Positions 1 to 19,656 of a stretch of DNA of 64,000 bases are shown piece after piece. The DNA is taken from assembly GCA_027922465.2 (NCBI GenBank), contig BQMF02000097.1, forward strand, positions 930,001-994,000, given 5' to 3'. The notes beneath the pieces are model-generated. The model searched no databases, was not told the DNA's origin, and saw only the letters and a list, made by a program, of their open reading frames with translations. The translations under genes were made by a program, and so were the position numbers. Source of the stretch: Turritopsis dohrnii. Its lineage: Eukaryota > Cnidaria > Hydrozoa > Anthoathecata > Oceaniidae. How positions within the stretch are numbered: position 1 is the stretch's first letter; each line of letters starts with the position of its first letter.

Positions 1-978
1 GAAAAAATACTAAAGGCTACCGGAGAGATAGCTCGAATATTGGGTAAGAAGGGGTTACGTAGTTTAGGGTTTGATATACCTAAGGGTAAAATAACAGCAC
101 GACAAGCAGTTGCACTTAACAAAATACAAGAAGAGCTTCCCTCGACATCTAAAATCACAAAATCGAGTGATGTAGAGCTTGAGGAAATTACAGGGAACAT
201 TGCAAACAGTACGGAAGATTTAATTTCAACGCTTAGACAACAATCTATCGATCATGAAATGACTCAGACCGGCGATCTATTTGAATATCCTGTACGTGAG
301 TTGTTAGGATTGGATAAAGCGCTGAGAAACATACGAGGAGGTCTTCAGGAAGAGGTTGCGAAAAAGGTTCGAATAGAACAGCATATCGATCGAGAGAAAA
401 ACAAGTTGGAGGAGATGGAAAATGATGCAACATACACGGACGAACAACGAAAAGAGGTTGAAGAGAGAATGGATGGATTACGTGAAGAGTTGAAAGCTAG
501 GAAAGAGAACATTGATATTCTCAAAGGTAAATTAAACAGTCAAGTTACGAGCATCAAAGAAACCATTGCTAAAGTCCTCGACAAAGATACCTCATTAGGT
601 GAAAGGATACGAACACTATTCCGCGAACAAGGTATAACAATCGTTAGCATTCTGACAGCGTTTGGTATGGCTATCGGTGTCCTTGTGGAAGCTTTGTTAC
701 CATCAGCAGCTGGAAACTCTTCGCAAAATCCTGACAAAGGTGGTGATAAAAAGGACGATGCAAAGGAATGGATAAAAAATAAACTAAAAGCGTTAGCATC
801 ACTTCTAGGTAGATTAGCATCTAAAGCGGCAGAGGCTTTACCAGGAATAATTGGGTCTATCGTATCGTGGATACTCACTAGAGCAAAAGAAGTTGTAGGT
901 TGGTTGAGTCAAAATTTATGGGCTCTGATTGTAGGGGTTGGATGGATGATCTATACGTACCTCGTGACTAGACGATAA
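1..978 (+). CDS. Polinton coiled-coil/membrane protein (5' end outside window)
   Basis: The frame is open from base 1, so the true start lies left of the window; a TTG at 40 is not a credible start. Visible order: a charged N-terminal part, a long heptad-like coiled coil (about codons 95-195 from base 1, rich in E, K and R), a hydrophobic segment after an RTLFREQGITIVSILTAFG block, a Gly/Lys/Asp linker, an amphipathic Ala/Leu-rich stretch and a C-terminal transmembrane segment ending in basic residues. I recognise this layout from predicted proteins of cnidarian Polintons, where it sits with the capsid genes; its role is unknown. A virion membrane-active or internal protein is my inference. 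It converges on the minus-strand gene at 1036-1458, with a hairpin between them. The frame is intact to its TAA. Confidence 0.75.
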   Translation, partial: EKILKATGEIARILGKKGLRSLGFDIPKGKITARQAVALNKIQEELPSTSKITKSSDVELEEITGNIANSTEDLISTLRQQSIDHEMTQTGDLFEYPVRELLGLDKALRNIRGGLQEEVAKKVRIEQHIDREKNKLEEMENDATYTDEQRKEVEERMDGLREELKARKENIDILKGKLNSQVTSIKETIAKVLDKDTSLGERIRTLFREQGITIVSILTAFGMAIGVLVEALLPSAAGNSSQNPDKGGDKKDDAKEWIKNKLKALASLLGRLASKAAEALPGIIGSIVSWILTRAKEVVGWLSQNLWALIVGVGWMIYTYLVTRR

Positions 979-993
979 CCATCTGAAAGTGTA

Positions 994-1018
994 TATGTTA
1001 CATGTATCGTGTAACATA
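994..1018. terminator. Convergent-gene hairpin, copy 1
   Basis: Perfect 9-bp stem (TATGTTACA / TGTAACATA) with a 7-nt loop in the 57-bp gap between two convergent genes. Same 9-7-9 geometry as the hairpins at 3148 and 8426. A bidirectional transcript-end or polyadenylation signal is inferred from position and recurrence. Confidence 0.65.
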
Positions 1019-1035
1019 ATTTTTGTTGATGGTCT

Positions 1036-1458
1036 TCATCTTTCAAAATACCACACAATTCCACCAATACCGAGCATACTCAGAGCTATAAAAGCCAACT
1101 CTCTTTCATGTTGATCATGACTCGGTGTATAAAAGTCGCTCAATACAGGCTCTCGTGGTAGCGGTTCAAGATGATTACTAAATACACTATTGTACTCTCT
1201 CATTGCATCATTTAGTTCTACGAATTTTGAATCAGCCTTCTTTTCGAGCATGAGCTGCTTATTGATAAAATCGATCCTTTCCTGTCGTTTTTGCTGCCAT
1301 TCAATCTGTGCTTTTTGTAATTTTTCTATGGCCAAATCATGACGTTTTCTTTCCTTATCGATTCTGTCTTTGGATAAACTTGAAAACAGATAGCTTGATC
1401 CTGTGAAAGCCAAAGCGTTAGCCAAAGCTCCACCCAACATCATTGCGATAGAAGCCAT
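1036..1458 (-). CDS. Polinton small membrane protein with coiled coil (140 aa)
   Basis: Starts MASIAMMLGGALANALAF, a hydrophobic N-terminus, followed by a basic coiled-coil region (about residues 28-75, many K, R, E and Q), a DAMREYNSVF block, and a hydrophobic C-terminal segment (about residues 121-137) ending in a charged FER. I recognise this arrangement from cnidarian Polinton loci, where it travels with the three genes upstream of it here. Function is unknown; a virion membrane or scaffold protein is possible. It is last in a minus-strand cluster running 2656 to 1036, only 2 bp from the previous stop, suggesting joint expression. Termination probably uses the hairpin at 994-1018. Confidence 0.75.
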   Translation of the reverse strand: MASIAMMLGGALANALAFTGSSYLFSSLSKDRIDKERKRHDLAIEKLQKAQIEWQQKRQERIDFINKQLMLEKKADSKFVELNDAMREYNSVFSNHLEPLPREPVLSDFYTPSHDQHERELAFIALSMLGIGGIVWYFER

Positions 1459-1460
1459 AT

Positions 1461-1688
1461 TTAGATATTGATATTTTCAGGTAAAATCTTTTGTTTGATT
1501 AAGTAGTCCTTTGTCACTTCACTAGCGGCGATAATGGCAACTAGTTTTCCCGTATCTTCCAAGTCGAACTTTTGAATAGAGGGTGGTGTCATTTTTAACA
1601 CCTTTTTTCCTAACATAGAGTAGCCGATAGCGAAAACGCAGACGACTGATGCATGATATAAATCGTTGATGATACTTTTCTTGTCCAT
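1461..1688 (-). CDS. Polinton small hydrophobic protein (75 aa)
   Basis: I take the Met at 1688 (MDKKSIINDLYHASVVCVFA) as the start, because the frame upstream of it is Lys/Asn-rich low-complexity sequence from an A-rich leader. One transmembrane segment (about residues 10-25) is followed by a KKVLKMTPPSIQKFDLEDTGK stretch and a second mildly hydrophobic helix. A gene of this size and pattern recurs beside the 140-residue gene in cnidarian Polintons as I remember them. No enzymatic motif; function unknown. Confidence 0.65.
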   Translation of the reverse strand: MDKKSIINDLYHASVVCVFAIGYSMLGKKVLKMTPPSIQKFDLEDTGKLVAIIAASEVTKDYLIKQKILPENINI

Positions 1689-1716
1689 GTTTGTTATATA
1701 TACATTTTTTTTCTTT

Positions 1717-2064
1717 TTATTCCATTTCATGTTTATTGATTTTCACTGGTATTTTAGATTTTTGTGGAAGTGGGGTGGATGGTGACCCACGGGGTAATAT
1801 TTGCTCTTTCTTTTTATACACAAAATAAGCAAATCCACCAACTAAACCGAGAGCTATTATTCCACCTACACCTATGGTGTAGTTCATAGGTTGTTGTTCA
1901 TTTGGTTTGGTGAGAGAGTCATCGAGCTTATTCACTTCTTTTTGAGGTGACACTTGTTTTAATTGTTCTCGTTTTTTACGGTTGTATTCCGCCAACTTCT
2001 TACCCGCTTCAACCTTTTTTGGGTTCTTCGTTGTCACTTGAATGGGAGTCTGTTCTTCTGACAT
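1717..2064 (-). CDS. Polinton single-pass membrane protein (115 aa)
   Basis: A Lys/Arg-rich N-terminal half (NPKKVEAGKKLAEYNRKKRE) is followed by one Gly-rich transmembrane segment (about residues 63-84) and a short basic tail. No signal peptide, so probably a cytosolic N-terminus. Its start overlaps the 3' end of the next gene upstream by 56 bp in another frame, a compact virus-like arrangement. Gene order and the Gly-rich anchor match other cnidarian Polintons I remember. Function unknown; a minor virion membrane component is a guess. Confidence 0.65.
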   Translation of the reverse strand: MSEEQTPIQVTTKNPKKVEAGKKLAEYNRKKREQLKQVSPQKEVNKLDDSLTKPNEQQPMNYTIGVGGIIALGLVGGFAYFVYKKKEQILPRGSPSTPLPQKSKIPVKINKHEME

Positions 2065-2656
2065 TTTTATTATCTACTACTGTATTTATATTATCATCGG
2101 ATTTATTTAAATTCCTTTCATTGATATAATGCCTCCCGGTAATAAGTCCAACACTGAGTGGTGCTAATAATGAGCCGAATTTATAATATAAGTCACATGT
2201 AAATCTTTGAAGGGCAGAGTTTAAGAAGGGGTCAGTTTCCAGGTCATTGCTCAGCGCTTCTTGATTATTTATTCCTAATGTTGCACAAGCCCCCATCGAA
2301 TAAATGCGTATCAGTGATTTCCCCAAGGATTTTACCATTTGACCTGATAGTTTAGCCTCGTAAATACTAAAAAGTTTTTCTACCTCTTCATCTTTGAGTT
2401 TGTTAATTTGCTCTTCCGTGTACATTTTCCCTAAGTATAGCTTGCTTTTCCCGGTTAAGACACACTCGAGTAATTTTTGTCTTTTACCATCTGAAGGTGG
2501 AAATTCACCCGGAACATCATAACTCTGGTTGATTAAATTATCGATCGCTGTTTCCGCCATTTTTATTAGAGAGAGGTATTTTTTTAACACAAAATAAAAG
2601 TAAAATAGCGAGATCAGCAGTATGCTTAATAACACGAAGTTGACATATTCTATCAT
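2009..2656 (-). CDS. Polinton conserved protein with N-terminal membrane anchor (215 aa)
   Basis: A hydrophobic N-terminal segment (about residues 5-30) precedes a region ending in a conserved-looking YEAKLSGQMVKSLGKSLIRI block and an ALQRFTCDLYYKFGSLLAPL block, then a charged, probably disordered tail (about residues 180-215). Those two blocks are what I recognise from Polintons in other cnidarians. A Met at residue 33 could be the start if the anchor is not used, but the first Met fits the frame. Function unknown. It is the 5' gene of the minus cluster 2656-1036, and its first ~36 bp are duplicated at about 2820-2856, beside the PPP1R15-like gene. Confidence 0.7.
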   Translation of the reverse strand: MIEYVNFVLLSILLISLFYFYFVLKKYLSLIKMAETAIDNLINQSYDVPGEFPPSDGKRQKLLECVLTGKSKLYLGKMYTEEQINKLKDEEVEKLFSIYEAKLSGQMVKSLGKSLIRIYSMGACATLGINNQEALSNDLETDPFLNSALQRFTCDLYYKFGSLLAPLSVGLITGRHYINERNLNKSDDNINTVVDNKNVRRTDSHSSDNEEPKKG

Positions 2657-2687
2657 TTTGTTGTGTTTGTTATAATTTTCTTATACT

Positions 2688-2812
2688 CTCTTATAATTTT
2701 GTTGAAATTTGCTGTATAAGAGTTTGCTATCCTCTTATAAGTTTGTTGAAATTTGCTGTATAAGAGTTTGCTATCCTCTTATAATTATTTTGTCTTAAAT
2801 AATTATAAGAGG
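2688..2812. repeat. 44-bp tandem repeat plus perfect 16-bp inverted repeat
   Basis: A 44-bp unit starting CTCTTATAA begins at 2688, 2732 and 2776 (2.3 copies, almost identical). The last, partial unit runs into a perfect inverted repeat: 2775-2790 (CCTCTTATAATTATTT) pairs with 2797-2812 across a 6-nt loop. It lies in the divergent gap between the 215-residue gene and the PPP1R15-like gene, so it could be a promoter element, a recombination scar or an origin; the sequence does not decide. Confidence 0.8.
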
Positions 2813-2888
2813 ATGATGATGTTTAATAATATAAAGTTGATATATTCTAACATTGTTAAATAAATAAACATTGTTTACTTAAACAATT

Positions 2889-3134
2889 ATGTTCGATGAT
2901 GAATCCTCAGATGATGATATTATATTTTCCCATCAAGATACAAAAAGGGTTACTTTTAATGATAAAGTAATGGTCCATTATATCTCTGCTTGTGAATCTC
3001 GTAGAAGTAACTGGATAGAGGCTGCTGTTGACAGAGTACGCTTTGAATCGAGGATTAAACATATTGGTAAAATTCTAGATCCTGTATTGAGACGTAAATT
3101 ATTCTCTTATAGTAGTCTTATAGGAGTCTTATAA
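2889..3134 (+). CDS. PPP1R15/GADD34-like PP1 adaptor, Polinton-encoded (81 aa)
   Basis: An acidic N-terminus (DDESSDDD) leads into an RVxF-type protein phosphatase 1 docking motif (R20-V21-T22-F23), then a V-x-V-H-Y-I hydrophobic stretch (27-32), a short linker, and W42 with A46, D48-R49, R51-F52 and R55-I56. This order and spacing is the signature of the C-terminal module of PPP1R15 proteins, which recruits PP1 and actin to dephosphorylate eIF2-alpha; herpesviruses, asfarviruses and some poxviruses carry versions that keep host translation running. Here it is a minimal stand-alone module on the opposite strand from its neighbours. ATG at 2889 is the first in frame; the last ~15 codons come from short AGTCTTATA repeats. 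A role against translational shut-off is inferred. A host PPP1R15 fragment captured by the element is equally consistent. Confidence 0.8.
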   Translation: MFDDESSDDDIIFSHQDTKRVTFNDKVMVHYISACESRRSNWIEAAVDRVRFESRIKHIGKILDPVLRRKLFSYSSLIGVL

Positions 3135-3147
3135 CAGTCTTATAGTT

Positions 3148-3172
3148 TTTGTTACAAGAGTCATGTAACAAA
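3148..3172. terminator. Convergent-gene hairpin, copy 2
   Basis: Perfect 9-bp stem (TTTGTTACA / TGTAACAAA) with a 7-nt loop in the 51-bp gap between the PPP1R15-like gene and the ATPase frame. The six inner stem bases match copy 1. Confidence 0.65.
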
Positions 3173-3185
3173 TATGTCAACTTGT

Positions 3186-3791
3186 TTAACAAATCACGTG
3201 CGTTCTTGGGTGTTCCATCCTCATGACTAGGCATGTGTGTTTCCCTCCTTTCAGTTTTTCCTTGACATTTTTCAATTCTTCTCGCGAATCAATGACATCG
3301 TTCTCTTCATGAATGGCGGCTAGATCGTTTCTATCTTTTGGATACCACACATATAACATTTTAGCTTGCCGCCGTAAATTTTTAGGTATAGCCGTTTATG
3401 ATTGTGTAAGTAACCATAGCGAATGGTTTCGATGGCGACCACTAATTGCCAACTCGAGCAAAGGCTGTCTCTTTTTGTCCAATTCCTCATCAGCGATTAT
3501 GTCGTCAATGAGGAATAAGGTTTTATATCCAGCACAATTAGTGGTCATTTCCTTAATCCATTCATACAAGCGACCTTGCGGTTCAATTAAAATCACATAG
3601 TTGTCAGTCCAAAACCACTTCCGATCTCTGTATGTTTGATTCCACCTCAAAGTTGGACATATAATCACGATGTAATCAAAGTGATTATAGTATTCATTTT
3701 CTAATAATTTTATGACACGATCCGTTTTGCCGCACGATGTTGGTCCGACGAATAATGCTGTGTGAGGTTCTTTCATGTAAAGTGTGTTCAT
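3186..3791 (-). pseudogene. ATP: Polinton packaging ATPase, one in-frame stop
   Basis: The N-terminal two thirds carry a Walker A motif (GPTSCGKT, about residues 17-24), a Walker B motif (TLFLIDD) and a sensor-like LWLLTQS end, the pattern of the FtsK/HerA-type (A32-like) ATPase that drives DNA into Polinton, adintovirus and virophage capsids. A TAA at 3396-3398 stops the frame after about 131 codons. The same frame then stays open for 69 more codons to TAA at 3186-3188 and still looks like coding sequence, so one substitution probably broke an otherwise normal ~200-residue gene. The start is 4 bp downstream of the capsid gene's stop, implying co-transcription. A sequencing error is the alternative. 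Confidence 0.8.
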
Positions 3792-3795
3792 TTTA

Positions 3796-5112
3796 CTAAT
3801 ATACTGCAGACATAAATTGACCGTTTTGTATGTTTAATAGAGCATCCATGATTAGATATACATATGCGTTTAAGTTTCCTGCAGTTTCAGCGGTCTTTTC
3901 AATCTGTAAAGTGATACCTTCAGTCGCATTTTCAATCCTTCGACCGGTCCCATGCAAGGCATTCTCATCAATTGTTCTGAAATCTAACCATAGAGCATAC
4001 TTGTTTGTCAAGTAATCAGAGACTTTTACATCATGTAATCCTAAGCGCTTTCGGTTTTCGCCGACGCTATTATCTTTTGGTTTTCCTTCAGCAAAATACT
4101 TGCAAATCTCATTGTATTGTTCAAACGGCTGCATCCCTTGAGCAAAAAGTTGGTTAGGCTTGCCCTCGACGATAACAGATAACTTTTTGATTTTTGGATT
4201 GTAGAATTTACCGGTATCTCGTTTGTAGGATTCTTCTTCTTCAAACAGAACTAAGATACCCTTCAAAGATTTGGCAGGTGTGTTGAATGACCAATTCCAC
4301 GTTGTGTCTGACTTGTTTACTCTAATTTGTCTGTGTCGCAAAATCCTATCATAGAGCAAAGCCATTTTTTGATATTCAGAAGCGATTTGTCTAGCCAACG
4401 TGGGCTGTGTCACAATCTCATATTCAAGTGAGATGTTAGATATTTTGTATTTACCGTCTGGGGTTTTTCTTGAACCTGTGGTAGGAGTTGGAGGGTCAGA
4501 ATAGATAACTCGGTTATAGTCGTTAAATGTGATCTCGTAGCATAACCTGTGCCCTAATCCAGCTTGATAATATGGGATAGTACTATCCAGCATTTCAAAG
4601 TCGAGTGGAATGACAAACTTGTTTTTATAGGTGTCAGCAATGGCTTTGTCTTCCGCATCATCGTCCTTTTTATCAGAAGCACCAATCCTCAATTTCATAC
4701 AATTCTCTGTACACCCATCGTCGATGATGATACCCTGTCTTATCGCGTTTCTCTTTTCAAACTTGGTTAACCATAAATCTCTGTAACACCCAAAAAGATC
4801 AAAGTCATCGATGCTCAATATCTCGTTACCTTCGAACTTAACAGCCAACTTCTTAACAATAGCTCTTCCAATGTTACTGACCAATGTTCTTTTTGAGTCA
4901 GCTTTCGATTCGAGTTCAATATCAAAACTTAGATTAGCTGTTCCTGGAATAATGACATCATCACTTCCTAAATTTGGAAACCTAACCAATAATAGCTGAT
5001 TTTGATCGATCTCACTCGGATTGTGTGTGACAATTACTTTTTGACGAGAGCCTTTTACACCGCGGGCAGTTCTAAGTGAACGTTCTGGATTCAACTTCTT
5101 TCCGTATTCCAT
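3796..5112 (-). CDS. MCP: Polinton major capsid protein (438 aa)
   Basis: An uninterrupted frame starting MEYGKKLNPERS. Features I associate with cnidarian Polinton MCPs are the LLVRFPNLGSDDVIIPGTA block (about residues 40-58), the GRAIVKKLAVKFEGNEILSI block, IPLDFEMLDSTIPYYQAGLG in the middle and an aromatic C-terminal part ending in a hydrophobic helix. The family is a double jelly-roll protein forming the hexameric capsomers of an icosahedral virion; the fold is known for the family and not visible directly. It sits between the minor capsid gene and the packaging ATPase on the same strand, the usual morphogenesis order. The intact frame suggests recent activity. Confidence 0.8.
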   Translation of the reverse strand: MEYGKKLNPERSLRTARGVKGSRQKVIVTHNPSEIDQNQLLLVRFPNLGSDDVIIPGTANLSFDIELESKADSKRTLVSNIGRAIVKKLAVKFEGNEILSIDDFDLFGCYRDLWLTKFEKRNAIRQGIIIDDGCTENCMKLRIGASDKKDDDAEDKAIADTYKNKFVIPLDFEMLDSTIPYYQAGLGHRLCYEITFNDYNRVIYSDPPTPTTGSRKTPDGKYKISNISLEYEIVTQPTLARQIASEYQKMALLYDRILRHRQIRVNKSDTTWNWSFNTPAKSLKGILVLFEEEESYKRDTGKFYNPKIKKLSVIVEGKPNQLFAQGMQPFEQYNEICKYFAEGKPKDNSVGENRKRLGLHDVKVSDYLTNKYALWLDFRTIDENALHGTGRRIENATEGITLQIEKTAETAGNLNAYVYLIMDALLNIQNGQFMSAVY

Positions 5113-5157
5113 TGTTAATTTTATGATATATAATTAATTTTTACTTTTTATCTCGGT

Positions 5158-5718
5158 TTAGCGGATGTGCAAAACAATGGTTCTTCCCAGGTCTTCTTTT
5201 AGCATACTGCCATGCTGATCTGTGAGTTTCAACGTGAGAGACTGAAATACACCATTTTTTAATTTTTTGTACTGAGGGTTTTTAGGCTCAACATGTGTGA
5301 AGTCGCTATGTTCAGCCATGTGATGGGTTAGTAAAATATCACTTAGCTTTCCATTCTCAAGATTTTGAGTGTTGTCAAGTTCAGATAGATGCAAATTAAT
5401 TTTGGTTACGTTAGCGAGCTTATTTGTTTTGATTACTTGAGGGTTTTTGCCTAATGAGGTAAGTTCTACATCACCTGCTAAAAAGGTACCTGCTAAAAAG
5501 GCATTCAATTCCCTGCTCGTGAATGTTCCTTGAGGTACCAACTTTTTAGCTTTCCTATAACCAAGCATAGTCAGTGTTAGGTCTGTGGTTATTTCATACG
5601 TAACATTGTCTGCAAACATATCAACCAATGCAATTTCTTTTGAGCCATCCAAGTTTTGAATGGGGTAAGGTAGATTTATGGTCTTCTCACCCCTTACGAG
5701 ATTTGCTGTGATATACAT
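5158..5718 (-). CDS. Putative Polinton minor capsid (penton-type) protein (186 aa)
   Basis: Beta-rich sequence of 186 residues beginning MYITANLVRGEKTINLPYP, with GTFTSRELNAFLAGT in the middle and a C-terminal SLTLKLTDQHGS and IVLHIR pair of strands. Length, lack of membrane segments, strand pattern and position directly upstream of the MCP fit the single jelly-roll penton protein of Polintons. I recognise the N- and C-terminal blocks from similar loci, but the penton assignment is by position and strand content. The ~45-bp gap to the MCP start is AT-rich and could hold a promoter. Confidence 0.6.
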   Translation of the reverse strand: MYITANLVRGEKTINLPYPIQNLDGSKEIALVDMFADNVTYEITTDLTLTMLGYRKAKKLVPQGTFTSRELNAFLAGTFLAGDVELTSLGKNPQVIKTNKLANVTKINLHLSELDNTQNLENGKLSDILLTHHMAEHSDFTHVEPKNPQYKKLKNGVFQSLTLKLTDQHGSMLKEDLGRTIVLHIR

Positions 5719-5757
5719 TTTCTTGTATTAAATATAAGATAATAATATTGAATAATA

Positions 5758-6915
5758 ATGGAGGATATTTTTAAATATGTTCCCAATGCGCTTTATAAGG
5801 CAAATGGAGGACAATACCTTCAGATATTGAATGCTAAAGATTTATACAAACAAACAATTATTGTCTCTGAGAGCGGTTCTTTCCCCGCAACTTTTCCAAA
5901 TATATTTACTAATTACGAAATGGAAGAGAATGATCAACGTATGAAAATTTGGCAGGAACAACCGTTTAAATTATGGCAAACCCAACTCAATTTTGTCACT
6001 TGGTGTGCTTCAAGCGCTTGTGGAGTCAGTTCTGAACATCTGAAAGAAAGTCGCTCTACTCCTATGATTAGAGCAGTATATCGTTTTCACGTCTATTATC
6101 ATATTAGACGAATCATTTAGCGTCTGCAGACACCTCTACCTTTTGAAGATAGTTTCAACCAATATGATAATCCTTATAACAAAGAAGAGTTTTTAAAAAT
6201 CTGTAGTGAATACGGTGTCGATTCTGATCCTAAAAAATACAAAGGGCAATATTTTTACAGCTCGTATCAAAAAAGACGTAGAGACTATCCAACGCCAGGT
6301 GTGAGTTATTTCACAGACGACTCCATGACACGATGGATTATAGAAAAATCTAAAGGCTTTACAAAAACAGGTCTTGTAAAAATTTCAGAGAGTGTTAGAG
6401 CATATGCTTATCTTATTCTTAGTTCCCAAGCCTCTGCTCGTTCTTCTATTTTAGGTAATAATTCAAGCTCTTTGACAGCTCAAAGAGTTTTTATGAACAA
6501 CTTTGAAGACATTGTTAATCGCAGAGTTGATATTCAAGATGACATTAAACGTTATCAAGATACTTTAAATTACGCTTCAAGCAAAGTTGATTATTCTGTT
6601 TGACAAGGTATTTACATGTTACCTAGTGACATGAATCTAAACATCAAGTCGGGAGTGTCTGGTTATAATAATAAAATTCTCATATCTAATGACAACTTGA
6701 GCCTCGGAAGAAACAAAATGATTAATGTTATGCAAGAGCATCATATTTCACCCAAAGTGACTAGCTCTCCAACAAAAAATAAAAGTTCACAAAAGGAAGT
6801 TCATAAAAGAGTAGTGAGTCAAACAGATTCACCCCCATCTCATGAAGAAGAGAAAACAGCTTTGGTTTTAGCGATTACCACGATGTTTAGTATATGGTAT
6901 TATTATTATTATTGA
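5758..6915 (+). pseudogene. Polinton structural gene with two in-frame stops
   Basis: One reading frame runs from ATG 5758 to TGA 6915, broken by TAG at 6118-6120 and TGA at 6601-6603. Segment 1 has QPFKLWQTQLNFVTWCASSA and RFHVYYHIRRI, blocks I recall from a conserved but uncharacterised protein of cnidarian Polintons. Segment 2 is charged with GQYFYSSYQKRRRDYPTPG. Segment 3 is low complexity (SGVSGYNNKILISNDNL) and ends in a hydrophobic helix followed by a run of Tyr from a TAT repeat, suggesting a C-terminal anchor. Segment 3 could also be its own 99-residue gene from ATG 6616. It diverges from the minor capsid gene across a 39-bp promoter gap. No function known; virion assembly is likely from context. 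Confidence 0.65.
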
Positions 6916-7404
6916 AAACAAAACTCCCTTAGGAGAACCCCCTAGGGTTTTTGTTGTTGTTGTTGTTGTTGTTGTGATACCCTAGAGGGTTTTTAATTCA
7001 TTGTCTTCGATCTAACCGGCACTCCACCCTGGCTTCTCCAATCCACCAGCTCTGAGCTCTACCCCTAGATCTTAGACTATTTGTGTGTGACTACTTACGA
7101 ACTCCGACTACTACGCACGCAATGGCCGTTCATGATCTGTTCGAGTATATTACATCTAGTCACATTGTTTTTCCCGACAACTTTTGGCACATTTTGTGGT
7201 GAATACCGGGAGCGGACGGCACCATCCAGTTCCAATCTAGCCGCTCCACTAGACCTTTCCTTTCCGGCAGACTCTGTCGCCTGTTCACCACAATTTTCAA
7301 ATTATTCCGCTCTTGGGTTTTATATCATTCATTTAGACCTTAGTGTCTGCTTGTGGTGTCTCTCGGAACGCTATAATTTTGTTTTTTATTTTGATTACAT
7401 AACA
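6902..7404. other. Inserted segment of higher GC between duplicated gene ends
   Basis: After the structural gene come a loose inverted repeat (CCCTTAGG / CCCTAGGG), a GTT microsatellite (about 6950-6975), and then ~400 bp clearly richer in G and C than the element around it. It holds no convincing frame. It is bounded on the right by a second copy of sequence found at 6714. Probably foreign DNA inserted during a rearrangement; no transposon ends recognised. Confidence 0.45.
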
Positions 7405-7522
7405 AAATGATTAATGTTATGCAAGCGTATCATATTTCACTCAAAGTGACTAGCTCTCCAACACAAACAAAAAAAAAGTTCTTTGGTTTAGCGATTACTA
7501 TGATGTTTAGTATATGGTATGT
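7404..7522 (+). pseudogene. Partial duplicate of the upstream gene's 3' end
   Basis: Bases 7404-7522 repeat 6714-6900 with an internal deletion: the same ACAAAATGATTAATGTTATG start, the same TGACTAGCTCTCCAACA block and the same GATGTTTAGTATATGGTA end. It is a truncated duplicate of the tail of the 5758-6915 gene and is not expected to be functional. Confidence 0.8.
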
Positions 7523-7537
7523 ACTATTTCGCTGATC

Positions 7538-7875
7538 AGCGTATGTAGTTTGCAATTATAGCCGGCATTGTGGATACATGCTAACACTTCTAAGCCCTGG
7601 CGTTTGTTGAATTTCGATCGAAATGACGGTAACCTGAATGTCTCTATGGACCAGAGAAACCTGACAGTGATAAATCACCCAGACGCAATGCTAACCATTC
7701 CGCGATATATTCAACACAACTGCGGGGAAGTGCGCACTCATGCAAGTTTTACAACCAGAACATGAGAGATCTACAACCGCCGAAGTATATATACTTCCTC
7801 TCAGACGAACTGCGTGGGGTTCGAACACACGACCTTGTTGTTACAAGTTAGCGTTCTTATCCACTAGACTACGCT
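7538..7875 (-). mobile_element. tRNA-derived SINE candidate
   Basis: On the minus strand, starting near 7875, there is a tRNA-like head with an A-box-like TAGTCTAGTGG and a B-box-like GTGTTCGAACC at tRNA-like spacing. The anticodon arm does not fold into a proper 5-bp stem with a 7-nt loop, so this is not a working tRNA gene. About 250 bp of unrelated body follow. An 8-bp direct repeat CGCTGATC lies at 7530-7537 and 7872-7879 and could be a target duplication, although the left copy is part of a 12-bp palindrome. No A-rich tail is seen. Confidence 0.45.
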
Positions 7876-7880
7876 GATCT

Positions 7881-8012
7881 GTATGTTATATGTATTGTTA
7901 GCTCATTTATGTTATAAAAATGAAACTACTACAAACTGCTTTTTACTACATTTTTATGAGATATTTAATTGTTTACAATTATGAGTAATTTGTGGTTATA
8001 TAATAGAAACTG
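7881..8012 (+). repeat. Direct repeat flanking the replication module, left copy
   Basis: About 132 bp from GTATGTTATATGTATTGTTAG to ATAATAGAAACTG, repeated in the same orientation at 13963-14118. It lies just upstream of the OB-like gene. Confidence 0.85.
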
Positions 8013-8071
8013 TTATGTGTTGTTATTTGTTATGTAATAGAAACTTACCACGTACACACAAAAAAACTGAT

Positions 8072-8085
8072 ATAAAAAGATATGA
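8072..8085 (+). promoter_or_regulatory. Candidate promoter motif before the OB-like gene
   Basis: AAAAAGATAT lies 18 bp before ATG 8102. The same 10-mer lies about 23 bp before the polymerase ATG at 10001 (near 9969), and related ATAAGATAATAA or AAAGATAATAA stretches precede the ATGs at 5758 and 9568. A shared A/T promoter word is plausible but not proven in DNA this AT-rich. Confidence 0.3.
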
Positions 8086-8101
8086 AACAAGTATATAGAC
8101 A

Positions 8102-8407
8102 ATGGAATTTCCAACAGTTGAAACATTTGAACAAATAATCGAACAATCTACATCGATCATAAAGTGGAGGGATCTACCTGAAAACGTGATTTATCATGTT
8201 AAATTTGTTTCTACAAAGGCTATGTATGCAGAAGTGCAAGACGGAACGGGAAATTTATATAAGGTGTGGTTGCCTGAAAGACTTTCCATTGAATTAAATG
8301 ATTATGGTTGCATCTCTAGAGAGGCCTTTGTCAGACCGAAAGGTCTCAAACAATCTCAAAAGAATCCAGAAAGACAATTCTTTGATTATGACATTATATG
8401 GCGTTAG
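8102..8407 (+). CDS. Small OB-fold-like Polinton protein (101 aa)
   Basis: 101 residues with a strand-rich middle (NVIYHVKFVSTKAMYAEVQD, then GNLYKVWLP) and a C-terminal GLKQSQKNPERQFFDYDII block. The alternation of short strands around Gly-Asp turns resembles an OB fold, and equivalents sit near the polymerase and integrase in cnidarian Polintons as I remember them. A single-stranded DNA-binding role during protein-primed replication is inference. The start is the only good ATG. It converges on the integrase with a hairpin between. Confidence 0.6.
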   Translation: MEFPTVETFEQIIEQSTSIIKWRDLPENVIYHVKFVSTKAMYAEVQDGTGNLYKVWLPERLSIELNDYGCISREAFVRPKGLKQSQKNPERQFFDYDIIWR

Positions 8408-8425
8408 ATAAAATCTCGTCGACTC

Positions 8426-8450
8426 ATCTTTACTAGAAACAAGTAAAGAT
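8426..8450. terminator. Convergent-gene hairpin, copy 3
   Basis: Perfect 9-bp stem (ATCTTTACT / AGTAAAGAT) with a 7-nt loop in the 66-bp gap between the OB-like gene and the integrase. Its length and TTAC-W core match copies 1 and 2, although the outer bases differ, so structure is kept while sequence varies. Confidence 0.65.
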
Positions 8451-8473
8451 ACTTTTTGTATGAGATGTATGAT

Positions 8474-9457
8474 TCACCAACCTTGCACATAATCAGGAGG
8501 TAATTCTGTATCTTCAGGTATCAACATCAACTCTTCTTTTACAAAAGCTCGTTCAGGTCCATCTTGAAGGTAATACATTACACGGTTACCTGGTTGATCT
8601 ATCACCTCACTCAATCTATAAGTCTTCTTTGACCATATCCTATCTGTTGCTCTTTTTCGATGGTCATCGTGCTCTTCACCCGGTTGCAATAGATATCTAT
8701 ACAAACCATCTTGAGGTAATTTTTCTTCGGGTGGATAGCTCTCTCGTTTAGCGAGAAGTACCTCTTTCATTTTAATAGCATCTTTCGGTTTCATATCGAT
8801 CATCCGAGTCTTCGTATCGTTTAATCTATCCACAAGTTTATACAAATATTTGACCCACGTAGATGATACCTTTTCCGAATCGTTCAGTTCTTGAGCATCT
8901 TGTATTTTGAATAAATTTTCGGCAAGTATCTTGTTCAACGCCTCGACAAACGCTGTATGGGTATGCTTATATTTAGTAGTTACTCTTTTAATTTCGACGT
9001 TATTCTTCCCCAACAATTTTGCCACATCCGCTTTGAATTCTGAACCGTTATCACATTGAAATACTTTTGGATAGTTTAAGGGTCCAACTCTATAGATATC
9101 TCTTATCATATCGGCAACCTCTTTGGCTTTCTTAGTCTTCAAAGGTCGCGCCACCTTGTAACGTGAAGCAACATCGATACCGGATAAGATGTACTTGTAT
9201 TTATTACCATACAGCATATCACTAGGCATGTACAATATATCAAATTGGTGAATCTCATTCGGTTTAGTCACTTCATAATGTGAACGTTCAACGTGTTTCG
9301 GTGCGGGTAAATGTACTTGCCACAAAGCTTGTTTTGATAGCCATTTCTTAATTACCTTCAGTTTGAAGCCGAATCCTCTTAGATTGCGAACAGCCTTTTG
9401 TCCTTTCCACAAGTTTTGAGGTTGATAATAAATCTCTTGAAGTTTAGTGTCTGACAT
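8474..9457 (-). CDS. INT: Polinton RVE-family integrase (327 aa)
   Basis: A retroviral-type DDE integrase that inserts the linear element DNA into the host genome. The catalytic triad is visible: D73 (HQFDILYM), D136 (QCDNGSEF) and E172 (AFVEALNK), with 35 residues between the last two, i.e. D,D(35)E. The first ~60 residues are a basic helical N-terminal domain without an obvious HHCC finger. Past residue ~270 a WSKKTYRLSEV / YYLQDGPERAFVKEEL region resembles the chromodomain-like or SH3-like C-terminal domain of Polinton integrases. The frame is intact. It is divergently transcribed from the SAP gene across a palindrome-rich gap and converges on the OB-like gene. Confidence 0.9.
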   Translation of the reverse strand: MSDTKLQEIYYQPQNLWKGQKAVRNLRGFGFKLKVIKKWLSKQALWQVHLPAPKHVERSHYEVTKPNEIHQFDILYMPSDMLYGNKYKYILSGIDVASRYKVARPLKTKKAKEVADMIRDIYRVGPLNYPKVFQCDNGSEFKADVAKLLGKNNVEIKRVTTKYKHTHTAFVEALNKILAENLFKIQDAQELNDSEKVSSTWVKYLYKLVDRLNDTKTRMIDMKPKDAIKMKEVLLAKRESYPPEEKLPQDGLYRYLLQPGEEHDDHRKRATDRIWSKKTYRLSEVIDQPGNRVMYYLQDGPERAFVKEELMLIPEDTELPPDYVQGW

Positions 9458-9465
9458 TTTTATTT

Positions 9466-9559
9466 ATAAACAACGTTTATTTAGCTCATTTTTTTTAACA
9501 AAAATGACACGAGAAAAGTGACTTAAACGTTGTTTATTATCTTTATATAAAGATAATAA
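9466..9559. promoter_or_regulatory. Divergent integrase/SAP control region with nested palindromes
   Basis: 9466-9479 (ATAAACAACGTTTA) is a perfect inverted repeat of 9524-9537, and 9534-9559 is a perfect 26-bp palindrome centred on CTTTATATAAAG, just before the SAP gene's ATG at 9568. Symmetry across a divergent gap suggests a shared operator or two mirrored promoters; a replication role cannot be excluded. Confidence 0.55.
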
Positions 9560-9567
9560 ACATAAAC

Positions 9568-9849
9568 ATGACCGACAAAATAGAATCAGATTACAAGTCA
9601 ATGACTCGTGACGCTTTACGAAAATTATGTGCGTCACGAAAAATAAAATATGCTAACCTAATGAACAAAGCTAAATTACTCGAGGTGCTTGAGAAAAATG
9701 ATGAGGATCCATCTTATATTCTCGATCCTGATACGAAACAAACGGTTAATAAATACTGTTTAAACTGGATAAAAAATAACAGAGAAAAATATCTCAGCTC
9801 TCAAAAACGTTATAACGCTAAGAGAGAGAAGAGAGTTTACAAAAAATAA
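9568..9849 (+). CDS. SAP-domain protein of Polinton (93 aa)
   Basis: Residues about 11-45 (SMTRDALRKLCASRKI, then NKAKLLEVLEKND) form a SAP motif: two amphipathic helices with the L..L/C pattern and a lysine turn, known to bind AT-rich DNA. The rest is strongly basic (KNNREKYLSSQKRYNAKREK), consistent with DNA binding. The polymerase downstream begins with its own SAP domain, so this may be a stand-alone duplicate. A role in packaging, replication or tethering to chromatin is inferred. A 10-bp hairpin follows the stop codon. Confidence 0.7.
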   Translation: MTDKIESDYKSMTRDALRKLCASRKIKYANLMNKAKLLEVLEKNDEDPSYILDPDTKQTVNKYCLNWIKNNREKYLSSQKRYNAKREKRVYKK

Positions 9850-9864
9850 ATAAATTGACCTCGC

Positions 9865-9893
9865 TTTTGTTACTTAATCAACGAGTAACAAAA
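9865..9893 (+). terminator. Hairpin after the SAP gene
   Basis: Perfect 10-bp stem (TTTTGTTACT / AGTAACAAAA) with a 9-nt loop, 15 bp after the SAP gene's stop. It shares the TTAC-W core and the TTTGTTAC arm with the hairpin at 3148. Confidence 0.6.
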
Positions 9894-10000
9894 ATAGAAC
9901 ACAAAGGTTACGAATCTTTTGGATGAAAAATTGGAAAATGATAATTGAAAATTTTAAAAAGTGATTTAAAAAGATATAATCGTGATATATATATTACAAC

Positions 10001-13000
10001 ATGACTACTAGAAAAACTGTTGTTGAATTAAAAGCTCTCGCTAGAGAACGCGGTTTACATGGCTACTCAAAACTCAGAAAAGCTGAGTTGATCGAATTAT
10101 TAGCAAACCCACCTATCCGACCTGTTCCACCACCAAGACCTGTTCCATTTATTCCTACCCAACAAGATATGGATTTGTTTGAGCAACAAGAAATGGGAAA
10201 ATCTCGACCTGTTGTGAAAAGCAAGTTGAATGAATGGAGAGATTGGTTAATAAATCATGTACCTAAAGCTATTAAGGAGAAAGTGAGTGGCGCTTTCAGA
10301 GAGATGAAGAAGAAGATTCTCAATCTCTACAAGAGGAAGAATGATGAAAAAGATGAAAAATTGGTGGAACCAGAAGCGTTTGTCCCCATTGAAACGGCGT
10401 TTGAGGGTTCTTACAAAAGGTTCAAGATAAACTCAGATGGAAAAAAGGACGTTGATTTGTTTCTCGAAAAGGTTCGACCCATTTTAAGTGATCTGATTAT
10501 GAGAGAACTCAAAAACAAAAAATCAATAAAAATTCAAGCAACTGTGTGGATCAAATGGAGAAAAGAAGATCTATCCAATCCTGAAGCGACAATCTATGTT
10601 GATAAGGCGTTCAATAGCAATATGGAAACAATTCACAATGAAAGCGATATATCTGATGTTATTAATAAGATGTTCAATAAGATAATCGAACAGGTTGAAA
10701 ACCCTGCATTACCTCAATCCGGTTTTGTTATCGATAAAATTTTAAATATTGATGTAGACTTTCACAAGCTAAAATTAACGAGAGGTAGCTCTTACTTACC
10801 GCTACCTAAGAATTTCAGTGGTAAGTATTCGATAATCAATCCTAAAAACGAAGATGATGAAGAGTGCTTCAAATGGGCTGTTATCGCAGCTCTCAATCAT
10901 GATAACATTAAGAAAAATCCACAAAGGATAATGAATCTCAAGAAACATGTTGATAAATATAATTGGGAGGGTTTATCGTTTCCAATGGCGCTAAATAAAA
11001 TAGATTTGTTTGAGAGGAGGAACCCTGATATCGCTGTGCATGTTTTGACAAAAGACGATAAAGAAGGTATCTATATGTGTCGTAAGTCGAAGCATCTTGA
11101 TCGCAAAGAAACGGTTGTTTTGTTTTTACTATGTGAAGAGGAAAAGAGACATTATATAGCTGTAAAGAACTTGAGCGGTGTCTTGAGTAAGGTCAACTCG
11201 AAGCACAAAAATAAAGAACATTATTGCTTGAATTGTCTCAATGGTTTCTCAAGTGAGAAAACACGAGATGAACACTTTGAATATTGTAAAAATAATGATG
11301 TCGCGAAGATTGAGATGCCAAATGAGGGTAGCACCGTTAAGTTTCATGACGGTCAGTACCAGCTCAAAGCTCCTTTCATAATGTATGCTGATTTCGAAGC
11401 TTTGTCAAAAGAGGTTTGTAAAGAACCGCGTAGCGTTATTGGATCATCCACTAAAAAGGTTGGTATACATATCCCCACAGGCTTCTGTTGTTATAGCAAA
11501 TTTGCTCATGGTGAAGTTTCAGACCCTCTAACGCTTTATCGAGGTGAAGACTGTGTTTTACGTTTTGTAGATCATGCGGTAGGTGAAGTGAAAAGGCTAT
11601 ACAATATGTTTCCTAAACAGAGAATGCGAGACCTCACATATGAAGAGGAACAGGGATTTATCGATTCTGATAAGTGTCACATATGTATGAAAGAATTTGA
11701 AAAAGATAATATTAAGGTTAGGGATCACTGTCATTTTACTGGTAAATTTCGTGGAGCTGCTCATCAGTCTTGTAATCTCCGTTACAAAGTGCCTAAATAC
11801 ATCCCGATCGTCTTTCACAATCTGAGCGGATATGATGCTCATCTGTTTATCAAAGAACTAGCCAAACAGTATGGAGATGAAGGGATTGCTGTCATCGCTG
11901 AAAACAAAGAAAAATATATCTCTTTCTCATTGGATGTTAAGGTTGGTGAATACATTGATAAAAATGGGGTGACTAAGGTTCAAAAGATACAGTTGAGATT
12001 CATCGATAGTGTGCGTTTCATGGCTAGTAGTCTGGATAACTTGGTAAACAATCTATCCGACGATCAGTGTAAAAACCTTCGAAAATTCTTCAAGGGTGAT
12101 GAGCAATTCAAACTATTGAGAAGAAAAGGAGTTTATCCTTATGAATACATTGATTCTTTTGATAAGTTTAACGAAACTAAGCTCCCACCGAAAGATGCTT
12201 TTTACAGCAAGTTGAACATGAAAGGTATCAGTGATGCTGATTATACACATGCGCAGAATGTGTGGAAACATATGAAAAATAAAAATATGGGTGCGTATCA
12301 TGATCTCTATCTCAAGACAGACGTTCTATTGCTTGCTGATGTTTTTGAGACTTTTAGGGAAACATGTATAACAAACTATAAACTGGATCCTGCACATTTT
12401 TACACTGCTCCAGGACTAGCTTGGCAAGCCTGTTTGAAAAAGACAGAGGTTGAGCTGGATCTATTATCAGATATGGATATGTTTCTCTTCGTAGAGCAAG
12501 GTATTAGAGGAGGTCTCTGTCAGGCTGTTCATAGACATGCTAAAGCTAATAACAAGTATATGGATGCTAAATATAAGAAGACTGAAGAAAGTAGCTATCT
12601 CCAATATCTTGATGCAAATAATCTATATGGATGGGCTATGATTCAGAAGCTACCGACAGGGAATTTCAAGTGGGTAGATGCTAATAAATTTACCACCGAT
12701 TTGATTTCAAAGTTGGCTGAGAAAGACGGTAAATATGGTTATCTTCTTGAAGTTGATGTGAACTATCCTCAGGAGCTTCATGATTCACATAACGATCTTC
12801 CGTTTATGCCTGAGCGAAAGAAGATCAATGGTGTAGAAAAGCTAACTCCATGTCTTTCAGACAAGAAGAACTATATTATTCATATCCGTGCACTTGATCA
12901 AGCGCTGAAGCATGGTCTTGTTCTTGAGAAGGTTCATAGAGTACTGAGATTTAGGCAAAGCGCATGGTTGAAGCCGTACATCGATTTCAACACCAATTTG

Positions 13001-13822
13001 CGTACCAAATCAAAGAATGACTTTGAAAAGGACTTTTTCAAGCTCATGAACAATTCAGTCTTTGGTAAAACTATGGAGAATCAACGTAAACATAAAGACA
13101 TACGCTTGGCTACCAAGAAAGAACAATATGAGAAGCTGGTGATGAAACCTAATTTCAAAGGTAGTATCTGTTTCAGTGAACATTTGATGGCTGCTGAAAT
13201 GCAAAAGATCAAACTCGTGTTGAACAAGCCGATCTATCTGGGACCTACAGTTCTTGATTTGTCAAAGACGATTATGTACGAGTTTCACTATGATTACATG
13301 AAACCAAAATATGGTGACAATCTAAAGCTCTGCTATATGGATACAGACAGCTTTGTCTATCACATCAAAACCGACGACTTCTACAAAGATATTGCTGATG
13401 ATGTAGCTTTGAGATTCGACACTTCAGCGTACGATGAGAAAGATAACAGACCTTTACCCATAGGTTTGAATAAGAAAGTCATTGGTCTAATGAAAGATGA
13501 GTTGGGTGGTAAGATAATGACAGAGTTTGTTGCTCTAAGAGCAAAGACATATGCATATAAACAGCTAGACGGAAAAGAAGACAAGAAGTGCAAGGGAGTC
13601 AAGAAGTGTGTAGTAAAGAAGACGATGGGGTTTGATGATTACAAGAGATGCTTGTTCGATGGTAAGAATGTTTACAGAGAACAGATGACCTTTCAATTGA
13701 TTAAGCATGATGTCCACACTATAAAAACAAACAAACTCGCTCTCAATGCGGATGATGACAAAAGAATTATTGCAAAAGATGGTATTGCTACATATGCCAG
13801 AGGACATTATAGATATGTATAA
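10001..13822 (+). CDS. POLB: Protein-primed family B DNA polymerase of Polinton (1273 aa)
   Basis: Replicates the linear element from a terminal-protein primer, as known for the family. In order: a SAP motif (about residues 5-38); a Lys-rich linker; a conserved N-terminal region (about 125-350); a C2H2-like finger (CLNCLNG...H..YC, about 408-427); an exonuclease motif MYADFEA (about 461); an endonuclease-VII/HNH-like zinc cluster (CHIC at about 559, HCHFTGK at about 576, C at about 590); a second exonuclease block HNLSGYDAH (about 606); polymerase motif A DANNLYG (about 871); motif B NSVFGKTMEN (about 1018); motif C MDTDS (about 1113); and a KTYAY motif. All catalytic aspartates are present and the frame is unbroken over 3.8 kb. 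An AAAAAGATAT word and TATATATATA lie before the ATG. Confidence 0.95.
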   Translation: MTTRKTVVELKALARERGLHGYSKLRKAELIELLANPPIRPVPPPRPVPFIPTQQDMDLFEQQEMGKSRPVVKSKLNEWRDWLINHVPKAIKEKVSGAFREMKKKILNLYKRKNDEKDEKLVEPEAFVPIETAFEGSYKRFKINSDGKKDVDLFLEKVRPILSDLIMRELKNKKSIKIQATVWIKWRKEDLSNPEATIYVDKAFNSNMETIHNESDISDVINKMFNKIIEQVENPALPQSGFVIDKILNIDVDFHKLKLTRGSSYLPLPKNFSGKYSIINPKNEDDEECFKWAVIAALNHDNIKKNPQRIMNLKKHVDKYNWEGLSFPMALNKIDLFERRNPDIAVHVLTKDDKEGIYMCRKSKHLDRKETVVLFLLCEEEKRHYIAVKNLSGVLSKVNSKHKNKEHYCLNCLNGFSSEKTRDEHFEYCKNNDVAKIEMPNEGSTVKFHDGQYQLKAPFIMYADFEALSKEVCKEPRSVIGSSTKKVGIHIPTGFCCYSKFAHGEVSDPLTLYRGEDCVLRFVDHAVGEVKRLYNMFPKQRMRDLTYEEEQGFIDSDKCHICMKEFEKDNIKVRDHCHFTGKFRGAAHQSCNLRYKVPKYIPIVFHNLSGYDAHLFIKELAKQYGDEGIAVIAENKEKYISFSLDVKVGEYIDKNGVTKVQKIQLRFIDSVRFMASSLDNLVNNLSDDQCKNLRKFFKGDEQFKLLRRKGVYPYEYIDSFDKFNETKLPPKDAFYSKLNMKGISDADYTHAQNVWKHMKNKNMGAYHDLYLKTDVLLLADVFETFRETCITNYKLDPAHFYTAPGLAWQACLKKTEVELDLLSDMDMFLFVEQGIRGGLCQAVHRHAKANNKYMDAKYKKTEESSYLQYLDANNLYGWAMIQKLPTGNFKWVDANKFTTDLISKLAEKDGKYGYLLEVDVNYPQELHDSHNDLPFMPERKKINGVEKLTPCLSDKKNYIIHIRALDQALKHGLVLEKVHRVLRFRQSAWLKPYIDFNTNLRTKSKNDFEKDFFKLMNNSVFGKTMENQRKHKDIRLATKKEQYEKLVMKPNFKGSICFSEHLMAAEMQKIKLVLNKPIYLGPTVLDLSKTIMYEFHYDYMKPKYGDNLKLCYMDTDSFVYHIKTDDFYKDIADDVALRFDTSAYDEKDNRPLPIGLNKKVIGLMKDELGGKIMTEFVALRAKTYAYKQLDGKEDKKCKGVKKCVVKKTMGFDDYKRCLFDGKNVYREQMTFQLIKHDVHTIKTNKLALNADDDKRIIAKDGIATYARGHYRYV

Positions 13823-13838
13823 GAGGTAAGAGGTAAAA

Positions 13839-13879
13839 AAAACAAACAAACAAACAAACAAACAAACAAACAAACAAAA
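13839..13879. repeat. (AAAC)n microsatellite
   Basis: About ten copies of a 4-bp unit directly after the polymerase gene. A 29-codon frame follows (ATG 13895), acidic at first and then running into repeat DNA; it is too short to call. Confidence 0.9.
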
Positions 13880-13962
13880 TAAACGAATTATACATGATAC
13901 CTATGGATATTGACTTTGAAGATCTTTTTGACTGCATCGATGATCTGTGTGTGTCTGTGTCT

Positions 13963-14118
13963 GTATGTTATATGTATTGTTAGCTTATTTATATTATAAA
14001 GTTTAAACTGCTACAAACTGCTTTTTACTACAATCGGGTATTTCCCCATGGACATTTTTTATGAGATATTTAATTGTAAACAATTATGAGTAATTTGTGG
14101 TTATAATAATAGAAACTG
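13963..14118 (+). repeat. Direct repeat flanking the replication module, right copy
   Basis: Matches 7881-8012 in the same orientation with a ~21-bp insertion (ATCGGGTATTTCCCCATGGA). It marks the outer edge of recognisable Polinton-associated sequence. I could not find the terminal inverted repeat of the element, whose other end lies outside the window. Confidence 0.85.
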
Positions 14119-14648
14119 CTTACGTAATCAAAATAATACGTTTCATAACTCGTATCGCGTTATGAAAACAAAGATGATAATATTAGCTATAGTAGGGAAA
14201 TTCCTGAAATCATATGATTTTGGGCTAGCATCCGCACTTTCCTATCTCTCCTCCATGCTGCAAGCAAATTCTTCTTTGGCTAAGTGGTTGAACAAACTTC
14301 CTTACCTTTTCTTTCATTACTCACCACTTATGAGTACTTCATGATCGCTTAAGAGATAGTCATTCAATTAATGAATAACAACATGGCAAATCTTAAATGG
14401 AAGTCTAGGTTTTTCTGCAACTCTTTAACTGAAATATACATTTCAAATCATATCAGCAACCAGTTATAGCTCATTAGATACAGAATAAAATAAAAAATTA
14501 TCTTTTATGTAGCGCCTATATAAAGAAGCATTAGGGCAATCCTGAGGCCACGTAAGCTCATGGTAGCAAGGAAAAACGCTAGTAGCAGGGCCAAGTGCGC
14601 AATCAATTTGCCTTTAGTAAATTTCATTAATTAATTAATTTTCATTGA
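14119..14648. other. Gap between Polinton and Penelope fragment
   Basis: No gene seen. It contains an AATT-rich low-complexity stretch (about 14625-14665). The small frame at 14162-14344 has no recognisable features. Confidence 0.4.
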
Positions 14649-15133
14649 TTAATTTTGATTAACTAAAAAACGGTTCCTTCTTTGCCAAGATAAGTATGTG
14701 ATTTTGTCATTTTTATGAACACCATTGACGACATCAGCATCAGCACACAACTGTGGCACGCAGGTATTGATCGTTTCATCCAGTGGAATATTCATGAACA
14801 AAAAATCCATATCTAAACTCGCCATAAAAAGATTATGATCACAGAAAGAGTCCTTAGCAGTATAATCATGACATGTCATTGTTTTTAGTATTTCGACCAG
14901 GAACATAGCTACATTATATGTCGGTTTACCAATGATGGGATAAGTCGAAAAAGTTGAAATTCATTTGAAGAATTCGTATGTATTTTTTGGAAGTCATACA
15001 TAAAACCAGGTTTAAGTCTTGTTGTTGCCAATTTGTTATAAGTTGTGTAAGATATAGATTCCTTATCAAGCAACGCTTTCAAAGTGTCTCTAATCTTCAT
15101 TTCCTTTTTAAAAATTATATAAATATTAAGCAC
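14649..15133 (-). pseudogene. Decayed Penelope-like RT fragment (minus)
   Basis: Two minus-strand frames carry pieces of a Penelope-type reverse transcriptase. The upstream one has SYTTYNKLATTRLKPGFMYD, resembling the start of the RT core. The downstream one has an AKDSF block and then MASLDMDFLFMNIPLDETI, a degraded motif A (normally FDV-SLFTNIPL, with the catalytic Asp changed in context). They are joined by a frameshift. The corresponding 3' half lies next to it on the opposite strand, so the element was broken and inverted. Not functional. Confidence 0.6.
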
Positions 15134-15204
15134 CTCATATCAACTTCACTTCTGAAATTGAATCCTTCCTGGATGCTAAAATCGATAAAAAAGTTATCAC
15201 TAAT

Positions 15205-19100: not shown

Positions 19101-19107
19101 GTATATG

Positions 19108-19460: not shown

Positions 19461-19656
19461 AAAACATATTTACACAGGTTGACTTCGTCAGAAAAATAAA
19501 ATTCTGCTATAAAAGAAGGACCTGCAACATAAGATAAAAACTATATAAAACATACTGGCTGGCAAGAATAAATCAGAAAAGAATTGAATCCGAGATTGAA
19601 AACGAAATTGAGGTCACTAAGTAATTTGCAAATTAGACATAAGCAATTGAACTCAA

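Follow-up and report, generated by a model that had tools for sequence, protein, structure and literature searches.

Gene content of the locus

The window, the whole stretch of DNA analysed here, comprises 64,000 nucleotides of Turritopsis dohrnii DNA with a G+C content of 35%, in which no tRNA and no Rfam match at gathering score was found. Its first part is occupied by an element that runs from base 1, with the left end lying beyond the window, to a presumed end at about 14 kb. As listed in Table 1, this element carries an rve (retroviral-type) integrase, a piece of an A32/FtsK-type packaging ATPase, and two frames that we take, by gene order, to encode the major and the minor capsid or penton protein. 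The probable major capsid protein gave no PDB sequence match, and its fold model was unusable (pLDDT 30.9). The long frame downstream of the integrase contains YADFEA, DANNLYG, NSVFGK, and YMDTDS, in this order, presumably the motifs of a PolB-type polymerase, and its product matched neither a PolB profile nor a PDB sequence. The first-pass annotation had placed the locus in a Polinton/adintovirus. The integrase and the ATPase piece support this setting, and the capsid and PolB labels follow from motifs and gene order. An adintovirus has been described with genes for PolB, an integrase, a capsid protein, a protease, and FtsK (PMC8363768, excerpt).

TABLE 1 Features of the ORF and of the element around it, with positions in the window
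Feature	Position	Strand	Basis
Divergent neighbour gene, 215 aa	2009..2656	-	No Pfam match up to E 0.1
Gap 5' of the ORF, 232 bases	2657..2888	.	Repeats, hairpin, partial copy of the neighbour gene start
PPP1R15-core-like PP1 adaptor, 81 codons (P0001)	2889..3134	+	PF10488 profile and PDB sequence matches
Conserved core, about residues 14-72	2928..3104	+	Alignments to PPP1R15B and DP71L
RVxF motif RVTF, residues 20-23, PP1 docking	2946..2957	+	Alignment; role from PMC4394352 (excerpt)
V29-H30, corresponding to the phi-phi pair V564-H565 of GADD34	2973..2978	+	Spacing from RVxF; role from PMC10743859 (excerpt)
R38, counterpart of PPP1R15B R658, PP1 Arg pocket	3000..3002	+	Alignment; role from PMC4394352 (excerpt)
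W42-I56, stretch facing eIF2-alpha and actin	3012..3056	+	Spacing from Trp and alignment; roles from papers (excerpts)
L63-x-x-x-L67, counterpart of DP71L L57/L61 (LSAVL)	3075..3089	+	PDB-sequence alignment; role from PMC5346070 (excerpt)
11-base tandem repeat encoding the last nine residues (73-81)	3105..3146	+	Sequence repeats
A32/FtsK-type packaging ATPase, first piece	3396..3791	-	Pox_A32 E 2.3e-4, 21.2 bits, just under the cut-off of 22.8
Probable major capsid protein	3796..5112	-	Position; Capsid_N only E 0.09, below cut-off
Probable minor capsid/penton protein	5158..5718	-	Position; no profile match
rve integrase	8474..9457	-	PF00665 E 1.2e-10, 42 bits, cut-off 32.6
PolB-like protein, 1273 aa	10001..13822	+	Rho_N/SAP-like start, endonuclease VII domain (E 8.6e-6), motifs

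In the ATPase frame, a stop lies at 3396-3398 and the next one at 3186-3188, and a second frame, at 5758-6603 on the plus strand, is interrupted by a stop at 6118-6120; this copy of the element is therefore probably not fully functional. Past 14 kb the window contains pieces of a reverse transcriptase (RVT_1, E 1.8e-13), suggesting that the element is an integrated copy. A search of positions 1-20000 for inverted repeats of at least 30 bases found none, and the left end of the element lies outside the window. Direct repeats at 7878-8000 and 13960-14105 (two blocks, 92% and 96% identical), approximately 6.1 kb apart, flank the part from the integrase to PolB, and parts of a plus-strand element gene at 6712-6900 and 7401-7520 recur 0.6 to 0.7 kb further on (two blocks, 92% and 90%). 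Outside the element, positions 27489-29282 hold a long ORF of 597 aa (stop to stop), probably from a Penelope-like element, judging by what we take to be reverse-transcriptase-like and GIY-YIG-like motifs.

Between the divergent neighbour gene and the ATPase lies an intact ATG-to-TAA frame of 81 codons, preceded by an in-frame TAA at 2880-2882. Downstream, 51 bases separate it from the last stop of the ATPase frame, which runs towards it, and no poly-A run was seen by eye 3' of its own stop. The length by itself is weak evidence for a gene, since a frame of at least 81 aa occurred in 19 of 2,000 shuffles of the local 538 bases. The 15 element frames measured span a GC3 of 0.17-0.43, and the ORF, at 0.22, falls near the bottom of this range.

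Both sides of the ORF are repetitive. Upstream, the gap holds tandem repeats with a 44-base unit (2688-2786; 2.2 copies) and a hairpin of 18 bp that pairs perfectly (2773-2814). Further on, at 2819-2854, the start of the neighbour gene is copied over 36 bases, 30 of them identical (reading MLEYINFILLNI versus MIEYVNFVLLSI). Together, these make positions 2657-2855 look like a local duplication. When folded as single-stranded DNA, positions 2670-2890 gave a z of -7.05. The repeats that overlap the 3' end of the ORF read TCTTATAGTAG and have the word CTTATA in common with the upstream repeats, so that the ORF is bracketed by similar repeats. The residues encoded by the downstream repeat are probably not conserved protein sequence.

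Similarity of the ORF product to the PPP1R15 core

In the first-pass annotation the ORF was described as a PPP1R15/GADD34-like PP1 adaptor, and a profile search against the Pfam family of the PPP1R15 C-terminus was proposed as a check. That family, PF10488 (PP1c_bdg, the PPP1R15 core), matches the ORF significantly, with an E value of 3.2e-7 (a single protein searched with 24,736 Pfam families) and a score of 30.7 bits, above the curated cut-off of 26.1. The match places ORF residues 13-59 on profile positions 164-210 of 230, and correction for the 646 stop-to-stop ORFs of at least 40 aa in the window leaves an E value of about 2e-4. A human PPP1R15B peptide scored 27.5 bits with the ORF, whereas 20,000 shuffles of the ORF residues reached no more than 12.0 bits. 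When the 646 ORFs of the window were scored with this peptide, the real ORF obtained 27.4 bits and the runner-up 5.5.

The ORF product was also compared with PDB sequences. Up to an E value of 10, eight distinct sequences matched, namely six PPP1R15A/B chains, DP71L, and one unrelated chain (1v8p, E 1.1), which was dropped. The three top-ranked matches were two PPP1R15B chains followed by DP71L, and four had an E value below 0.01 (PPP1R15B chains at 7.9e-6, 1.1e-5, and 0.0069, and DP71L at 1.6e-4). The PPP1R15A chains and one short PPP1R15B chain followed at 0.21-0.76. No NCBIfam profile matched up to an E value of 0.1. A SHR3_chaperone match (E 0.15, under its cut-off) was dropped and a single PHROGs match (E 0.39) was disregarded.

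The published eIF2-alpha motif reads Rx[Gnl]x1-2Wxxx[Arlv]x[Dn][Rg]xRFxx[Rlvk][Ivc] (PMC5346070, excerpt). The part from the Trp onward, searched as W...[ARLV].[DN][RG].RF..[RLVK][IVC], occurs once in the six frames of the window and never in 100 control windows made by shuffling the bases within 500-base blocks. Adding the Rx[Gnl] start leaves no occurrence in the six frames; the ORF therefore departs from the complete motif, at that start.

Conservation of PP1, actin, and eIF2 contact positions

The coordinates of the 81-residue gene in the first-pass annotation proved exact, and each residue it had named is in place: RVTF at 20-23, V27-x-V29-H30-Y31-I32, W42, A46, D48-R49, R51-F52, and R55-I56. 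Residues 14-58 align without gaps to PPP1R15B with 19 of 45 identical, and residues 16-70 align to DP71L with one gap. Ten PPP1R15B positions were checked, of which eight are identical in the ORF (V641, F643, I652, R658, W662, F672, R675, and I676), with I32 as the counterpart kept at I652. The two changed positions are K640, which is R20, and Y650, which is H30; a His is also present in the phi-phi pair of GADD34 (V564-H565).

GADD34 positions were assigned by counting rather than by alignment, with 535 subtracted when KVRF was the reference and 540 when it was the Trp. Counted from the Trp, the actin contacts F592 and R595 of GADD34 (PMC8500838, excerpt) are kept as F52 and R55. The reported eIF2-alpha contacts are R587, D588, R591, and R594 (PMC8500838, excerpt), of which D588 and R591 are kept as D48 and R51, and R587 and R594 are replaced by V47 and S54. 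The PPP1R15/GADD34-like identity thus holds as regards the profile match and most mapped positions, but not for every contact.

Several of the conserved positions have known mutant phenotypes. Alanine at R658, W662, F672, or I676, or at the PPP1R15A counterparts, weakens the in vitro response to actin (PMC4394352, excerpt), and a double mutant of GADD34 F592 and R595 shows a nearly 50-fold loss (PMC8500838, excerpt). Mouse PPP1R15A F585A and I589A are weak actin-side mutants that behave like the wild type in cells. Mutation of L57 or L61 in DP71L reduces function, and both are needed for full function (PMC5346070, excerpt).

Other parts of known PPP1R15 proteins were not found. Actin binding of GADD34 is helped by R612 and the W616-R620 stretch (PMC8500838, excerpt, among others). 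Plain spacing found no counterparts of these residues in the ORF, where they would correspond to F72 and to the residues encoded by the repeat. A helix that binds eIF2-gamma, with F and W on one face, has been described in vertebrate PPP1R15s and ICP34.5 (PMC10998612), which is why we place it outside the PF10488 core profile; it is also said to be conserved in ICP34 and DP71L (PMC7615683, excerpt). No such helix was seen in the ORF when F..W and F...W spacings were looked for, and no RARA repeat was seen. A single-sequence fold of the ORF product gave one long helix over residues 25-73 (mean pLDDT 68.8), and was set aside because, on its own, the PPP1R15 core is natively unstructured (PMC4394352, excerpt).

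Search for relatives

In IMG/VR viral contigs, 31 stretches matched a peptide pattern made from the ORF and 69 matched one made from the alignment of the ORF with PPP1R15B, none of which was confirmed by tblastn. The same applies to the pattern matches for the probable capsid (6), the integrase (26), and a part of PolB (4). A PolB DNA pattern had no match there, and a shorter form of it is present in the window. These scans may omit records from the genome to which the window belongs and from very close ones, and the negative results are therefore of little weight for other Polintons. Neither the ORF nor the PolB-like protein matched a phage record.

In the open-licence literature we found no text that contains both PPP1R15 and Polinton, and with broader queries none among the matches listed that joins PPP1R15 or GADD34 with Polinton, Maverick, or adintovirus. 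This agrees with the first-pass annotation, which knew of no such gene in a Polinton. PMC6401483 and PMC6259494 mention polintons and eIF2 together, but their excerpts concern translation factors of giant viruses. PPP1R15 and phosphatase are mentioned neither in PMC11071296 and PMC11071308 nor in the excerpts of PMC8363768, and GADD34, eIF2, and ICP34.5 are likewise absent from PMC11071296. Conversely, the excerpts of PMC4394352 mention neither Polinton nor transposon, and 'transpos' does not occur in those of PMC10743859. PPP1R15 mimics are already known in herpes- and asfarviruses and hypothetical in insect viruses, and the Polinton is a new carrier; this is likely the first PPP1R15-type gene in such an element.

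Discussion

We consider it probable that the ORF encodes a minimal PPP1R15 (GADD34/CReP) core and serves as an accessory gene that keeps translation on for a Polinton/adintovirus-like element. The element protein would wrap around host PP1 via the RVxF, V-H, and Arg-pocket contacts, and would use the portion beginning at the Trp to bind G-actin and to present eIF2-alpha. PP1 would then dephosphorylate eIF2-alpha at Ser51, so that protein synthesis could continue despite host eIF2-alpha kinases triggered by infection. Going by its sequence, the ORF product may in this way suppress host translational arrest, which would imply that the ORF is expressed, that its product binds PP1, actin, and eIF2, and that the element benefits. 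Several points speak against this proposal. A single copy is known and the scans described above found no relative, R587 and R594 are replaced, the Rx[Gnl] start is not matched, and neither a counterpart of the GADD34 actin tail, by plain spacing, nor an eIF2-gamma helix was seen. The wild-type behaviour of the two weak actin-side mutants in cells, the argument that the C-terminal core alone lacks substrate selectivity, and the stops in two other element frames also count against it. The absence of the actin tail lowered our confidence both in this proposal and in the view, discussed below, that the element belongs to infectious viruses, and raised that in two of the alternatives, a stray host gene piece and a different substrate.

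The ORF could also be a fragment of a host PPP1R15 gene that strayed into one copy of the element and is of no use to it. In mammals, the PPP1R15 core occupies an exon of its own (PMC4394352, excerpt), only one copy is known here, and tandem repeats and a duplicated gene start show the gap 5' of the ORF to be rearranged. We nevertheless find this unlikely, as the ORF has its own ATG with an in-frame stop close upstream, lacks a poly-A run after its stop, lies 51 bases from where the converging ATPase frame ends, and is uninterrupted while two other element frames carry stops. Moreover, its AAVDRxRF stretch resembles viral DP71L more closely than PPP1R15B. That an intergenic ORF should look like PPP1R15 by chance seems very improbable: the length of the ORF is unremarkable (19 of 2,000 shuffles) and its tail is built of repeats, but the PF10488 match (E 3.2e-7), the score of 27.5 bits against at most 12.0 across 20,000 shuffles, and the coincidence of matching residues with functional positions all argue against it.

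The product might, alternatively, bind PP1 but act on another substrate or merely sequester PP1. Among PP1 regulators, at least 85% have an RVxF motif and about 20% a phi-phi motif (PMC10743859, excerpt), and DP71L without residues 52-66 still binds PP1 but no longer supports dephosphorylation of eIF2-alpha (PMC5346070, excerpt). The absence of two Arg residues that face eIF2-alpha, and of the actin-boosting tail of GADD34, would fit this possibility. We regard it as rather unlikely, because the part after the Trp, which is not conserved in other PP1 regulators (PMC4394352, excerpt), is conserved here, including F52, R55, L63, and L67.

If the ORF is indeed a functional PPP1R15 core, the viruses carrying this core now include the Polinton/adintovirus lineage, and the gene would be evidence of an element fighting an intracellular host defence in a virus-like manner. 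A further step, which we take only tentatively and at slightly less than an even chance, is that Polintons of this lineage are recent or current infectious animal viruses equipped with an antagonist of the integrated stress response, with eIF2-alpha phosphorylation acting as a host antiviral defence, and that the gene was acquired separately from those of asfarviruses, herpesviruses, and insect viruses, or marks an old exchange with them. The copy in the window may itself be dead, given the stops in two other element frames. The ORF is also a very small natural core, useful for asking whether the core alone aims PP1 at eIF2-alpha. The core by itself has been reported to be selective with G-actin (PMC4394352, excerpt), whereas the C-terminal core alone, without the middle region, has been argued not to be substrate-selective (PMC8633803, excerpt), so that the two papers disagree.

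Comparison with known systems

Hypothetical analogues have been described in invertebrate viruses, namely an entomopoxvirus, ascovirus, granulovirus, and salivary gland hypertrophy virus (PMC4394352, excerpt). The authors of that study aligned them to the same core of approximately 70 residues; they belong to other virus lineages. The cores of human PPP1R15B/CReP and PPP1R15A/GADD34 have the PP1-docking residues, the Trp, and two actin-contact positions in common with the ORF. The human proteins are more than 600 aa long, compared to 81, and have a long N-terminal region that the ORF lacks; their eIF2-gamma helix and RARA repeat were not seen in the ORF, and the counterparts of R587 and R594 are changed. 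The RARA repeat is absent from DP71L, too (PMC5346070, excerpt). The short form of DP71L from African swine fever virus (PDB chain 9nb9_B, as named by its depositors) matched ORF residues 16-70 in the phmmer search. DP71L is encoded by a large cytoplasmic virus and the ORF by an integrating Polinton-type element, and the ORF has an acidic N-terminus and a different tail. Short DP71L is 70-72 aa long (PMC5346070, excerpt), and the length of the ORF fits such a core-only protein, which we counted in favour of a minimal PPP1R15 core. The two have in common this core-only size, an RVxF motif near the N-terminus, the AAVDRxRF stretch, and two leucines in the tail.
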